From Sordariomycetes sp. S80-01Y (lineage: Eukaryota > Ascomycota > Sordariomycetes), in NCBI GenBank assembly GCA_037042185.1, contig JAXQJY010000028.1, forward strand, positions 2,108,001 through 2,172,000: a DNA stretch of 64,000 bases, written 5' to 3'. Both the position numbers and the translations under genes were made by a program. Under the pieces are notes generated by a model that worked only from the letters and a program-made list of their open reading frames with translations, was not told the DNA's origin and searched no databases. Below are positions 49,029 through 54,154 of the stretch, one piece after another (the first letter of the stretch is position 1; each line of letters opens with the position of its first letter).

Positions 49029-49153
49029 GGTCGGTTAGCTCAGTTGGTTAGAGCGGTATGTTCCCACAACCAATCAGCCGCCTGATCAATCACTAATTCC
49101 TCCCAGTTGTACTAATAATGCAAAGGTCATGAGTTCGACCCTCATACTGACCA
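49029..49153 (+). tRNA. tRNA-Ile(AAU), copy 1, with a 51-bp insert between nt 26 and 27
   Basis: Mature halves are 49029-49055 and 49107-49153. Together they fold as a complete cloverleaf: acceptor GGTCGGT/ACTGACC with discriminator A, D arm GCTC/GAGC, anticodon stem TTGTA/TGCAA closing loop CTAATAA (anticodon AAT, read as inosine-AU), variable AGGTC, T arm ATGAG/CTCAT with TTCGACC. A-box and B-box promoters are intact and a TTTCTTTTT terminator follows at 49154. The insert 49056-49106 begins GTATGT, has CACTAAT 13-19 bases before its end and finishes CAG. It lies before the anticodon stem, not at the 37/38 site of all known eukaryotic nuclear tRNA introns of the usual kind. Confidence 0.92.
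49056..49106 (+). other. Intron-like insert in tRNA-Ile copy 1
   Basis: 51 bp, GTATGT at the 5' end, ACTAAT box, CCTCCCAG at the 3' end. It can also pair CCGC in its middle with GCGG across the 5' junction. It differs from copy 3 at 2 and copy 2 at 9 of 51 positions, all outside the first 7 and last 15 bases. Confidence 0.85.
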
Positions 49154-49692
49154 TTTCTTTTTGCCGTTTTCTTTTTTGATGAATTCATATCTTTCAATGG
49201 ACGGTTCAGGTCCGTGCCGACGGTGTTTTGGATTGTGCGGCATCCCCTTGGGTGCCGTAAGACACCAAGCAAGTATCTGATCCACTTCGTCGACATACTT
49301 GGATGGTACGTCTGTCTTCAGATCGGACAGCGATCAGTGTCTGCAACATGGTAAAGACTAGTTAGTTACTCGTTCCTTTTTCTCGTCCTGAACGAGCATG
49401 CCAGTGTTGTTCAGCTAGCTCAAGTCGATATTGAAGGCCCTTATGGATGCCATTAACAGTTATCTCAGGCAGCGGCGGCAAATGATGAAGTTTGAAGGCT
49501 GCGAGTAATATCAAGTAGCGATGTGTACCAGCCGGAAATGCTGGCACTTCTGTTACCAACGAAGTTTGCAACCCCGCTAGGTGCCTTGCCTATTTGATTT
49601 AGAGCAACGCTTTAATTGGTCAACCTGCGATCTTGAGGGTCCCTCCAGCACTCGACAACATAGGAGAAAACAATTCCCCTTGCAGACATCCT

Positions 49693-49817
49693 GGTCGGTT
49701 AGCTCAGTTGGTTAGAGCGGTATGTTTCACCAGCTAATTAACCGCCTGATCGATTACTAATTCCTCCCAGTTGTACTAATAATGCAAAGGTCATGAGTTC
49801 GACCCTCATACTGACCA
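49693..49817 (+). tRNA. tRNA-Ile(AAU), copy 2, with a 51-bp insert between nt 26 and 27
   Basis: Mature halves 49693-49719 and 49771-49817 are identical base for base to copy 1. The insert 49720-49770 has the same length and the same ends (GTATGTT, ACTAATTCCTCCCAG), with TACTAAT as its branch-like box, closer to the fungal consensus than copy 1. Nine internal positions differ from copy 1, while none of the 74 mature positions do. A 17-T terminator follows directly. The upstream flank CAGACATCCT is shared with copy 3, suggesting descent by segmental copying. Confidence 0.92.
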
Positions 49818-49820
49818 TTC

Positions 49821-49837
49821 TTTTTTTTTTTTTTTTT
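49821..49837 (+). terminator. RNA polymerase III terminator of tRNA-Ile copy 2
   Basis: An uninterrupted run of 17 T starting three bases after the tRNA discriminator, a far longer run than Pol III needs. It shows the gene retains normal Pol III architecture. Confidence 0.85.
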
Positions 49838-50213
49838 AGTTCTTAATCTTTTTTCCATGATTCCACAGCGTCTTAATGGACAGTTGTGGCCCAAACTTAC
49901 AGTCGTATGGGTTGAGTTTTCCTTTCATCGTCCTTTCTTTTCGCCATTCTCTGTTTCGCCATTCTTTATGTCGACAGCAATGAAGCATGGGCGTATCGAG
50001 TTTGGTATGTGACACGTGCTGCTAACTGCCCAATCTATTATCTTGACACGTGGTCTGCATTGTAGCTGTGAGAGCGTAGAGAAAATTGTTGTGCTGTACA
50101 GTCTGTGTTTATGCCTCAATCATGTTAACAATGTATTTTGCGGAAGCACCCTACTCGTTCTACAACTATGGATCCCTTAACATGCATGTGCGAAGGGTCG
50201 ATGTGTCCAGTCC
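49838..50213. other. Spacer between tRNA-Ile copy 2 and the damaged gene
   Basis: About 0.38 kb, AT-rich, no gene seen. Confidence 0.4.
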
Positions 50214-52714
50214 TCATGCTGCTGGCTGGCAGACATTGAGACGCTGGAAGTGGCGTCCACGCCTTGTGCTCAGTATGTCCACTCCTGCGATCTGCTGGCC
50301 TGGCTTGGGATGGTGCTCGATCTTCTCTCCATCCCCGGTATACTCTCCAGTGTACGTGTCTGTGGCACGGCCTCTCGCCTTGCTCTTCCCGAGAAACCTC
50401 CGTGGTTGCTTTTCTGTGTACTCGATGCTCCTTTCCTCCAAGAAATCGACCATGGAGTTGGCTCTCTTCGCATTGCCCAACCCAGACACCTTAGCCCACG
50501 CAGACCGGACCTTGCCGTCTCTAGATGGTTCATATCGATACTGGATTCCCAATCGAACTGCTGGGTCCCCAAGCATGGCGTCCGTAGCGTAGACATGTTC
50601 ATGGCGCACGCCATCTGGGACTAGGTCGCACTTTATGAAAAGATCAACAGTGCTCGCGTCTTTGGGAACGGTCACTGTCAGTCCACAAGTGAGGAATATT
50701 CTCCTGCCTCCAGAGCCTGCGGAGTGGACCGAGCCTTGCATTAGTTTCTTCCTGAGCTCATCCCGGCTTCTCGTGGCGTTTTCGCTTCTTGGCGGCTTCA
50801 CTACCGGAAGTTCCGCAGGCTCTTTTGGAGACACGTTCGCTTCTTGTTGGGTAGTCGTATGATGTGATGAGTTCAGGCTTCTCCTGGATTTTCCGGCTCG
50901 AAGTTGCACGCCGTAGTGCTTGCGGATGCCGTGGGATTTAACACGCAAAGCGTTGTCCATGCTCTTGATGGTTTGGGCTCGAGCCTCATTATCAAGTGAA
51001 GGACTCAAATTGCCAATGCGATAGGTATAGAGTGCTTCGGCCGCAGTGAGTTCATACTCTATGAGCAAAAGACTCGAAGCATCTAAATGAGCGTACGGAC
51101 TATCCGACTCGTTGACTTGGACATTGTTGGCGCCCCAGCAACCCAACCATTCTAAGGCCTGTTCGATCTCATGCGTCGAAACAGTTAGAGAGTCGTTCAA
51201 CAGCTGATTGGCTTCCCTTCTTTTGGGTTCCGGGTCATCAGCCGATCTATGGTCGGTGGCCTTGCGTGTGGGGTGGCCTTGATCGTCCAAAACTCGTGTG
51301 TTCTTGACCCGCCGGCGCATTTTCCCCACCATAGCGGCAGCGTGCCTCGTTCTGTTCGAGTGGCTGATTTTGTCGCTGATCTTGCGCTGAACTACTTCAA
51401 CGATCGACTCTCCTCGGGCGTGGATATCACCCGGGTCTTCGCAGAGAAACTTTGTGACCCAGGCAAGGAACTCGGTCGAATGCTTGTCCACCTGCAGTCG
51501 TTGCTGCGTTCGCGCTTCTTCGCGACGATACATATGTAATTCAGCCAGTGGAGCTCCCTTCGACCCCCTTTGCAGACCGGTCGAACTCAAGCGAGTAAAG
51601 TGGCAGGTTGCGGCTTTGCTAAGGAAATAGGTGCTGTCTGTTTCGCAGTTAAAGAGCCAGAGAATGAGGTTCAAACCTGCATCTAGACAAGCGGCTGTCT
51701 TTCTCTGAACGGCACGTTTGACGTAAAAGATGGCTGCTGGGTGGTCGATCAGCAGAATTATTCTTTTCAGCTTCTCACCGGGACCATTGAAATCCAGCTA
51801 AAATTTCAACTTGCCATCGGGAGGAAGGAAGTTGACTTCGACGAGGCAAAATCTTTCGTTGATGGTCTTTTCGAAACGCCCTTTCGCACATGACCCGCCA
51901 ATTATAAGGTAGGGTAACGGGAGTAGATCTAAAAGATCTTCCGAAAGTCCATCGTGCAGCTCCTGAACTGATTTGGACCAAGCTCTGGCGGGACAGCGAG
52001 GGTTGCTGCGATCACTGGCCTTCTCAGCACGCCAGTGCCAGTCATATCCGAAGACCTTCTTATCGGGTATGCCTTTCTCCTTGAGTAGCTTTATTGTGGC
52101 AGAGTCTTCCGCGTCCCAAAATGCGGCAGCGCTCTCGTCGCAATGTTGAATGTGCAGGATCAAGCCAAGGCCGGCGCCAGGATCTCCAGATGGAGCTGCC
52201 AGTCGATCACGAGCCCCCCCAGAAAGGGACATCTCTTCTTGGTAAAATGCCTCCAGCTTCAGCCGCATCTGATGACATAGGTTTGCTTTACACTCGTTCG
52301 CTGTCGCTGCGTGCGCGAGGAAAAACTGCGTCAGGTATCCAAGCCGAGTGGGGCTGAGCTGCGCTGCTGCTGCTTGTGAGAATCGACTAGCCAACTCCTG
52401 GCCTGCAAGGAACTCTGGTGGTTGAGGAAGCTCAGAGCTAGTCCAATCGGTGTTTGGGGGCGGGCCAATGGCATTTAGACCTGCGCCATCCTTGCCCACA
52501 TGTAACAAGTTGGGTTGCTGAGTATCGTGATGCTGGCGCATTGCCGCGTAGCAGGCATGGGAACCCATCGCTGAGAATAGCGGTCGCTTGTGAAAGTCCT
52601 CGATTTGCACAAGATTGGAACGAGGGCGCACGAGTTTTCGGCACCGCCATGAAATTCAAACGCTAAGGTGATGTCTGAGCAGGAGTTGTTAAGATTCAGA
52701 AGGATGAATGCCAT
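50214..52714 (-). pseudogene. Large gene of unknown function with an in-frame stop and a frame change
   Basis: Reads as a protein of roughly 830 residues in one direction but broken twice. From 52714 the opening MAFILLNLNNSCSDITLAFEFHGG runs in one frame, but the rest (VQIEDFHKRPLFSAMGSHACY onward) is in another, the switch falling near 52620-52650 without convincing splice sites. A single TAG at 51798-51800 then divides LPPDGKLKF from LDFNGPGEKLKRIILLIDHPAA in the same frame; it could come from CAG by one C-to-T change. The second half (NLILWLFNCETDSTYFLS, ELRKKLMQGSVHSAG) stays open for 486 residues, so decay is recent. I recognise no domain. It is enclosed by tRNA-Ile copies 2 and 3 in opposite orientation. 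Two shorter genes instead of one is the alternative. Confidence 0.6.
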
Positions 52715-52810
52715 AGAAGGGAGCGAACGAAGACACTACGTCAGGTAGTAAACAAAGCTTGAGCCTTCGAAGGTGGGGCAATTTTTAGCTGGAAATGGCA
52801 AAAAAAGAAA

Positions 52811-52935
52811 ATGGTCAGTATGAGGGTCGAACTCATGACCTTTGCATTATTAGTACAACTGGGAGGAATTAGTGATTGATCCGGCGGCTGATTGGCTGTG
52901 GGAACATACCGCTCTAACCAACTGAGCTAACCGAC
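52811..52935 (-). tRNA. tRNA-Ile(AAU), copy 3, with a 51-bp insert between nt 26 and 27
   Basis: Mature halves 52935-52909 and 52857-52811 are identical to copies 1 and 2. The insert 52908-52858 again starts GTATGTT and ends CACTAATTCCTCCCAG; it differs from copy 1 at only two positions. The terminator TTTTCTTTTT follows on the minus strand. Lying inverted to copies 1 and 2, with the same CAGACATCCT 5' flank as copy 2, it brackets the damaged gene between 50214 and 52714. Confidence 0.92.
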
Positions 52936-54154
52936 CAGGATGTCTGAGTTGAAATTATTGGTCCTTATAGATGGCAAACAGAGATGGCGACGGCAGATAC
53001 ATTTCCAGCTTTCGTCATGTTGGCCCCTCCATGTCGGTCCTGGCGAGCAAACCAATATTACTTCTTGAAATTACAATTACGGATCATTCAGGCTTGGACG
53101 GCGAAGCTGGACAAATGCATTGACTCCTTGGCCGGAACATTCGGGGTTCGGGAATGAAGGACTCAGTTGGCGGCGTCAGTGAGTTCTCAGAGACTTCATT
53201 TAGATGAAATCCTTCTCCTCTGGCGGGGTGTCGGATGCGAGATCCGGCAGGATCTCATGCAATCTATGGCCTAAGCTGTATGAAGTACTATCGGGGAGAA
53301 GCAGAGCCCCAAGATGTGTAATTGGAGCGTGTAAGCGGGGAGAGAGCTCCCACTCGCACCACAGTTCCTGTTACACGTAAGATGGGATTTTTGTTGAGCG
53401 GGTGCAGCAGATAGGGGACCTGGCGCAGCGATACCGCACTCTAATTTTTTTTTCTCCCGCAACAGCCTGAGCCAGCACCAATTGAGACACAACGTTCCTT
53501 TTGACGGGCAAATGCCTCACGCCAAGAGGCCTCAGAGCTCCCAGGGGTCTTTTAGTGAGGGTGAGGCAGGATTTCAGGCGCCTGGAGGCGGGATATTTCT
53601 CGGTGAAGGCTCTTCGCTTGGGGCGGGTAGACTCAAAGATTGGCTTTGCGGCCAGGGAAGCTCAGATCTCGGGCCTACAGTAGCCTGAAGGCTCAATGCG
53701 GATTTTGCACGGCTCCAGATATTTTCCCTCGAAGCTTGTTATCGTGAAATATTCCAACGCATGGCTCATCGCTCCATGACTGCCCAGAACACATCATTCC
53801 CGCGTTGTCGACTTAAAATCACTACCCACGAGCTGCTCTGAGATTATCTCTGTAAGTCTCCGTCGCGTCCAGGACGCATCTTGGTTGCCCCTCAGCTGCA
53901 CGTTGCGCTGTTAGTGCGCGGACTGGGCGGCTGCAGGACCCCTCCCCCCCATTGAGAGCTGCCCCCACTTCACCTCGAGTTCCCCTCCACCACCAAAAAC
54001 ATCATCCATCATCCCTCGTCTTTTCTCTCCAGCGCAGCCTCATTTCCCATCTTCCCCCTCTCTCAATACCGCCTTAGCTCTCAGAAGCTGCACCCACGAC
54101 TTCTTTACCAGATACAACCTACACATAATCGCAAACTACGAGAACACAGCTAAC
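52936..54154. promoter_or_regulatory. Upstream region of pyruvate kinase
   Basis: About 1.2 kb without a recognised gene. The last 250 bp (53900-54150) are strongly pyrimidine-rich with short CT tracts, the usual leader of highly expressed fungal glycolytic genes. Confidence 0.5.

Follow-up and report, generated by a model that had tools for sequence, protein, structure and literature searches.

How does a fungus obtain its tRNA-Ile(AAU) when every gene found for it is interrupted outside the canonical intron position 37/38? The question is raised by a stretch of 64,000 nucleotides (nt) from Sordariomycetes sp. S80-01Y (GenBank assembly GCA_037042185.1, contig JAXQJY010000028.1, positions 2,108,001 to 2,172,000, forward strand), which is called the window below and contains three tRNA-Ile(AAU) genes, each with a 51-nt insert after tRNA nt 26. 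Judged from their sequence, these inserts are very probably U2-type spliceosomal introns lying inside tRNA transcripts of RNA polymerase III (Pol III) and removed by the spliceosome. Published papers are cited here from excerpts of their text.

Three interrupted tRNA-Ile(AAU) genes

The Rfam tRNA model RF00005 (gathering score 29 bits) matched the window at exactly three places, with scores of 39.9-40.1 bits, each above the gathering score, and no other Rfam family reached its gathering score in the window. The genes, their candidate introns and the T runs behind them are listed below in coordinates of the window; the introns and T runs were read from the sequence.

49029-49153, + strand: tRNA-Ile(AAU) gene A, exon 1 49029-49055, exon 2 49107-49153 (RF00005 39.9 bits; ARAGORN after excision)
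49056-49106, + strand: intron A, spliceosome-type by its signals, 51 nt, after tRNA nt 26; 5' splice site GTATGT 49056-49061, CTAAT 49093-49097 (branch A 49096), CAG 49104-49106
49158-49162, + strand: run of five T after gene A, likely Pol III terminator
49693-49817, + strand: tRNA-Ile(AAU) gene B, exon 1 49693-49719, exon 2 49771-49817 (RF00005 40.1 bits; ARAGORN after excision)
49720-49770, + strand: intron B, spliceosome-type by its signals, 51 nt; GTATGT 49720-49725, CTAAT 49757-49761, CAG 49768-49770
49821-49837, + strand: run of 17 T after gene B, likely Pol III terminator
52812-52936, - strand: tRNA-Ile(AAU) gene C, exon 1 52936-52910, exon 2 52858-52812 (RF00005 39.9 bits; ARAGORN after excision)
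52859-52909, - strand: intron C, spliceosome-type by its signals, 51 nt; GTATGT 52909-52904, CTAAT 52872-52868, CAG 52861-52859
52800-52811, - strand: runs of four T and then seven T after gene C, likely Pol III terminator

The sequence-only reading had reported three such genes with a 51-nt insert after nt 26, and the RF00005 matches together with the sequence bear this out, except that the end it gave for the last gene (52935) is one base short of the match, which ends at 52936. Its account of the insert is right for the GTATGT start, the CAG end and the (C/T)ACTAAT box, while the spacing of 13-19 bases has to be corrected: the box starts 16 bases from the 3' end and 9 bases follow it. Introns A and B contain additional CTRAY matches upstream of the main box. 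The three introns fold no better than shuffles; in predicted precursor folds, the D arm is the pairing partner of the intron in genes A and B, a fold that gene C lacks.

Removal of the insert gives a 74-nt tRNA-Ile(aat) cloverleaf in ARAGORN, as had been claimed, in which the acceptor stem and the anticodon stem each have a single G.U pair, and this AAU cloverleaf is conserved between the copies. The minimum-energy fold from ViennaRNA only approximates it. The mature RNA can be obtained from just two junction placements, one of which is GT..AG, and the splice junction is nearly forced by the sequence. Left unspliced, genes A and C were miscalled as Gly(ccc) and gene B as selenocysteine (SeC(tca)) by ARAGORN in intron mode; a run on the window with the bacterial code gave no tRNA.

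The exons of A, B and C are identical at 74 of 74 positions, while the introns, over 51 positions, show 9 differences for A and B, 9 for B and C and 2 for A and C, with GTATGT, ACTAAT and CAG kept in all. For A and B, 0 changes in 74 exon positions against 9 in 51 intron positions gives a Fisher p of 2e-4. The copies are not fresh duplicates, because their flanks (150 nt, six comparisons) never scored above the best of 100 shuffles. The three inserts are homologous and are therefore counted as one event.

Uninterrupted tRNA-Ile(AAU) genes were sought in the 30.9-Mb assembly (16 contigs) with three patterns, and none was found. A 5'-half pattern with at most three mismatches and a 3'-half pattern matched only genes A-C, and the pattern GC N6 CTAATAA N6 GGTC had no match. 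In 14 open reading frames (ORFs) of the window, 289 of 305 Ile codons are AUU or AUC (73 and 216, respectively) and 16 are AUA, so tRNA-Ile(AAU) should be essential.

The same signature in other tRNA genes

An Rfam-based census of tRNA genes in the genome scored 63 of 683 candidates, 62 of them over the cut-off. The three Ile genes escaped it, as did at least nine others, namely seven Pro or Gly genes found by pattern and two genes seen by ARAGORN beside census genes (L027 and L028; L numbers denote loci and C numbers contigs). The signature was screened in 73 entries (63 + 3 + 7, in which L069 is a fragment), with L027 and L028 left out. It turned out that its ends coincide with the excision points restoring the cloverleaf in 6 of 73 entries: the three Ile genes, two initiator methionine (iMet) genes and one Gln(UUG) gene.

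C13:1079444-1079566: well-formed iMet gene, 51-nt insert between nt 46 and 47
C15:1952371-1952494: well-formed iMet gene, 52-nt insert between nt 46 and 47
C11:2323230-2323368 (L052, 231-369), - strand: Gln(UUG) gene, 52-nt insert after nt 34 and a 15-nt intron at 37/38

The iMet inserts (L047, 245-367, and L070) read GTACGT...TCTAAC...TAG, and both well-formed iMet genes found are interrupted; their exons differ at 0 of 72 positions and their introns have diverged. The Gln(UUG) insert reads GTGCGT...CACTAAC...TAG and lies at 34/35, within the anticodon, in a gene that also carries an ordinary 37/38 intron. ARAGORN called the excised sequences Met(cat) and Gln(ttg), the latter with its 15-nt 37/38 intron kept, and the cloverleaf is thus restored in all six genes. 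The ViennaRNA minimum-energy fold after excision is a cloverleaf for iMet but not for Gln with its second intron still present. When the Ile, iMet and Gln genes were used as queries against the genome, nothing came back but those three, two and one genes, and no introner-like family, that is, many near-identical intron copies, was found in the genome at BLAST sensitivity.

All six inserts have the form of a U2-type intron. Each starts with GTRNGT (GTATGT, GTACGT or GTGCGT), ends with YAG and contains a CTRAY branch site (CTAAT or CTAAC) with the branch A 10-12 nt from the 3' end, and the lengths are 51, 51, 51, 51, 52 and 52 nt. For comparison, CTRAY is expected 6-36 nt before the 3' splice site (PMC5832005), and Fusarium introns are 42-529 nt long with CTRAY in 91% and YAG followed by R in 94% (PMC5677156); the signals here are in keeping with those of Hypocreales. 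The chance of a GTRNGT start, a YAG end and a CTRAY whose A lies 6-20 nt before the end in a random 51-nt insert is about 3e-6. Beyond these signals the Ile, iMet and Gln introns show no similarity, since middle-only shuffles were as good in at least 136 of 1000 for every cross-family pair. The full signature starts 24 times in the window on both strands (three being the Ile introns), whereas 20 Markov windows had 6.3 starts on average and 12 at most; at the Markov rate about 0.3 starts are expected over the 5.3 kb of census genes. The weight lies in the match between signature and exact excision points, not in the signature alone in tRNA genes. A self-splicing group I or II intron was excluded by the size of 51 nt, the lack of a ribozyme fold and the lack of any non-tRNA Rfam match in the window.

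The sequence-only reading had left the choice between the spliceosome and a SEN-type endonuclease accepting a new site. In ectopic BHB (bulge-helix-bulge) introns, the cut sites lie in two bulges that flank a central 4-bp helix. Processing by the fungal SEN endonuclease and the Trl1 ligase at 26/27, 34/35 and 46/47, in the way that archaeal and red-algal enzymes treat ectopic introns, is unlikely. It has precedents, though: tRNA introns at ectopic sites have been described in archaea, nucleomorphs and Cyanidioschyzon, archaeal-type BHB substrates can be cleaved by eukaryotic SEN too, and many nucleomorph introns are without a defined BHB (PMC4090602, PMC3978253). The tRNA body is also still recognised in the precursor by the Rfam model. 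Such an enzyme would leave GTRNGT, CTRAY and YAG in every insert unexplained. Eukaryotic SEN presumably places its cuts by measuring from the body of the tRNA (PMC4090602), and one ruler cannot give three positions, none of which is the canonical 37/38. The strict central 4-bp helix is absent, with 1-3 of 4 pairs formed, a test of low power given that only 2 of 31 ARAGORN-called introns reach 4 of 4. With the recurrence in iMet, Gln and, as described below, U6, the sequence clearly favours the spliceosome and makes SEN much less likely.

The interrupted genes might instead be dead or dispensable copies, with intact genes elsewhere supplying the tRNAs. Several facts count for this and weigh against the spliceosomal reading. 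The census is incomplete, as noted. An iMet-like locus without insert exists (L066, C6:475296-475367, - strand), whose T-stem mismatches are those of what is possibly a decaying copy, which might yet be functional; a second Gln(UUG) gene (L017) has no spliceosome-type insert; and D- or T-arm insertions in eukaryotic tRNA genes are usually regarded as the sign of a pseudogene (PMC4090602). On the other side, exons are identical between copies (74/74 and 72/72) while introns drift, the two half-gene patterns and the uninterrupted-gene pattern found no intact Ile(AAU) gene, and the only two well-formed iMet genes found are both interrupted. Dead copies are therefore very unlikely.

Another explanation is that RNA polymerase II also reads the genes within longer transcripts, and that the introns serve those transcripts and not tRNA maturation. 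The signals are indeed of the mRNA-intron type and long open frames lie nearby. Excision, however, restores the ARAGORN cloverleaf in 6 of 6 genes, and T runs lie downstream of all six, which makes this explanation scarcely credible. TTTT occurs inside none of the six genes.

In the census as a whole, ARAGORN called introns in 31 of 63 entries. None of the 31 is GT..AG, and the calls include several misparses, one with length 0; L047 and L052 are among the misparses, being cut elsewhere than at the GT..AG piece. L052 was read by ARAGORN as tRNA-Thr(tgt) with one 67-nt intron at 37/38. This was rejected, because its D arm matches that of Gln(UUG) L017 by eye and GT..AG excision yields TTG with A37. 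The census contains no Pro, Asn or Val(AAC) entries. Missing Pro genes were considered as a sign of odd introns and the idea was dropped, since five pattern-found Pro genes have ordinary 37/38 introns by eye and no signature. L116 (C7:792631) has a Pro-like D arm and no recognisable T arm in the stretch read, and looks like a broken tRNA gene.

U6 genes and the probable course of processing

The genome search for U6 gave two matches over the cut-off.

C8:978290-978465 (L124, match at 978300), - strand: interrupted U6 gene, 57.2 bits, its detached first piece below the cut-off
C8:546025-546145 (L125, match at 546034): uninterrupted U6-like gene, 59.1 bits, with a T run after the gene

The intron of L124 is 51 nt long (GTAAGT...CACTAAC...CAG), lies within the ACAGAGA region and contains the B-box-like GGTTCGAAC. 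It is likely spliced by its signals, though splicing is not forced, because the uninterrupted U6-like gene exists and scores slightly higher (59.1 vs 57.2 bits). L125 looks the more diverged of the two in comparison with the usual U6 sequence.

The Pol III B-box core GTTCGAA occurs in the U6 intron and both iMet introns at index 22-24, and in none of the Ile or Gln introns. The two iMet introns share GTTCGAATCYCGTCTAAC, a B-box-like core right before the branch site, while the remainder has diverged. The U6 exons as read contain no B box and the iMet T loop is ATCGAAA instead of TTCGA, whereas the Ile and Gln genes have GTTCGA in the T arm. In the control, GTTCGA was present in 2 of 38 predicted window introns of 40-100 nt, a noisy set. 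Schizosaccharomyces U6 introns match the B-box consensus, according to the title of Frendewey 1990 (cited in PMC10484740). Pol III probably transcribes the U6 and iMet introns, which may also act as part of the promoter. A common origin of these introns was considered and is unsupported, as 124 and 234 of 1000 middle-only shuffles scored at least as high; in the 21 intron pairs tested, the lowest count between different genes is that of IleC and U6 (11 of 1000 shuffles). The shared B box and spacing may reflect constraint.

With the anatomy of the inserts, their recurrence, the constraint on exons and the failure of three patterns to find an uninterrupted Ile(AAU) gene in the assembly established, we infer the following course. 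Pol III would transcribe the entire interrupted gene from internal A and B boxes, and the nuclear spliceosome would recognise GTATGT, CTAAT and CAG in the Ile pre-tRNA. The 51 nt would leave as a lariat, nt 26 would be joined to nt 27, and end trimming and modification would come afterwards. The iMet (46/47) and Gln(UUG) (34/35) precursors would be processed likewise. The 37/38 intron of Gln would be cut by the SEN endonuclease after the spliceosomal step, because the anticodon exists only once the first intron has been removed. Because the three patterns brought up no uninterrupted Ile(AAU) gene, the spliceosome would be needed for the decoding of AUU and AUC. A stronger version, somewhat less likely than not, makes the spliceosome an obligatory tRNA-maturation enzyme for all AUU/AUC decoding and all translation initiation, with iMet and U6 introns that double as promoter through the B box and are hard to lose. 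It is weakened by the GTTCGA control and by the uninterrupted U6-like gene.

Further points tell against spliceosomal removal from tRNA precursors. Pol III pre-tRNAs have no m7G (7-methylguanosine) cap and fold fast, and both properties should make it harder for a spliceosome to assemble. In 6 of 6 genes, the exon that follows YAG starts with T, whereas a purine is the preferred base in Fusarium. Another YAG lies 6 nt downstream, within the exon, in both iMet genes. In a model built on Fusarium 5' splice site frequencies (PMC5677156), GTACGT has a share of 14.5%, GTATGT 10% and GTGCGT 3%, so the Ile and iMet sites are common and the Gln site is weaker or rarer. The anticodon arm of the Ile genes itself contains TACTAAT (49107-49125, in exon 2 of gene A, and likewise in B and C), and CAAAG downstream of it provides an AG. 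This is a possible decoy branch site and 3' splice site, whose use would delete the anticodon. The U6-like gene without an intron, which slightly outscores the interrupted one, belongs here as well.

The host is a Hypocreales fungus near Emericellopsis, because pyruvate kinase, aldehyde dehydrogenase and acyl-CoA dehydrogenase pieces of the window share 91%, 89% and 84% identity with Emericellopsis proteins; presumably it is near Acremonium, too. Homolog-supported introns of window protein genes are 48 nt (GTAAGT, CTGAC) and 56 nt (GTACGT, no CTRAY) long, the latter in the aldehyde dehydrogenase gene. Gene prediction in the window produced many false introns from opposite-strand frames; of the 38 that it placed at 40-100 nt, only 9 show the full signature, and just the two homolog-supported ones served as examples of introns in protein genes. 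Two open frames between genes B and C (50214-51674 and 51798-52631, both - strand) have no Pfam match. The exon-intron junction pattern had 0 matches in viral contigs and 0 in genome contigs, collections that include no fungal genomes, and no match in plasmids.

Significance and known systems

In the textbook division, tRNA introns belong to a protein endonuclease and a ligase and mRNA introns to the spliceosome. If the inserts are spliceosomal, both splicing systems would act side by side in a single cell and, in the case of Gln, on a single gene. Translation would then depend directly on the spliceosome, and splicing would be possible in a Pol III transcript that has no cap, folds fast and has a first exon of only 27 nt. 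The genes would be a test bed for the entry of spliceosomal introns into new RNA classes, and they may account for missing or misnamed tRNAs in the gene lists of such fungi, as with the Ile genes that ARAGORN calls Gly or SeC.

The sequence-only reading held that either route of removal would be new. This is too broad for spliceosomal removal from a Pol III transcript, which has a precedent in U6 (PMC10484740, PMC5832005), while the tRNA as host RNA is probably new. No report of spliceosomal introns in tRNA genes was found in the part of the open-access literature covered. Among small structured RNAs, frequent interruption is said to be known for U3 and U6 only (PMC5832005), and spliceosomal introns are mentioned for fungal ribosomal DNA (PMC11782384). 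Noncanonical tRNA introns are described as rare in eukaryotes, with nucleomorphs and C. merolae named, and the string "spliceosom" is absent from the excerpts of that paper (PMC4090602) and likewise from those of a tRNA gene review (PMC4033280). The noncanonical-intron search of tRNAscan-SE 2.0 is described for archaeal candidates in the available text (PMC8450103).

Canonical nuclear tRNA introns likewise interrupt tRNA genes, in this genome too and, in one case, in the very Gln gene that has a spliceosome-type insert, but they lie at 37/38 and have no GT..AG. They are cut by SEN and joined by Trl1. The ectopic introns of archaea, nucleomorphs and Cyanidioschyzon merolae resemble the present ones in lying outside 37/38; they differ in being recognised through BHB or relaxed BHB structures where studied, and the excerpts describe no spliceosomal signals in them. 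Fungal U3 small nucleolar RNA (snoRNA) introns are likewise spliceosomal, have RCTRAC as their branch site and interrupt a small structured RNA (PMC5832005), and the host there is a snoRNA. Introns of fungal U6 small nuclear RNA, e.g., in Schizosaccharomyces pombe, and that of L124 here, are likewise of the mRNA type in a Pol III RNA (PMC10484740). U6, however, is itself part of the spliceosome, and its intron has been attributed to reverse splicing near the catalytic site (PMC10484740), whereas a tRNA has no such tie to the splicing machinery.

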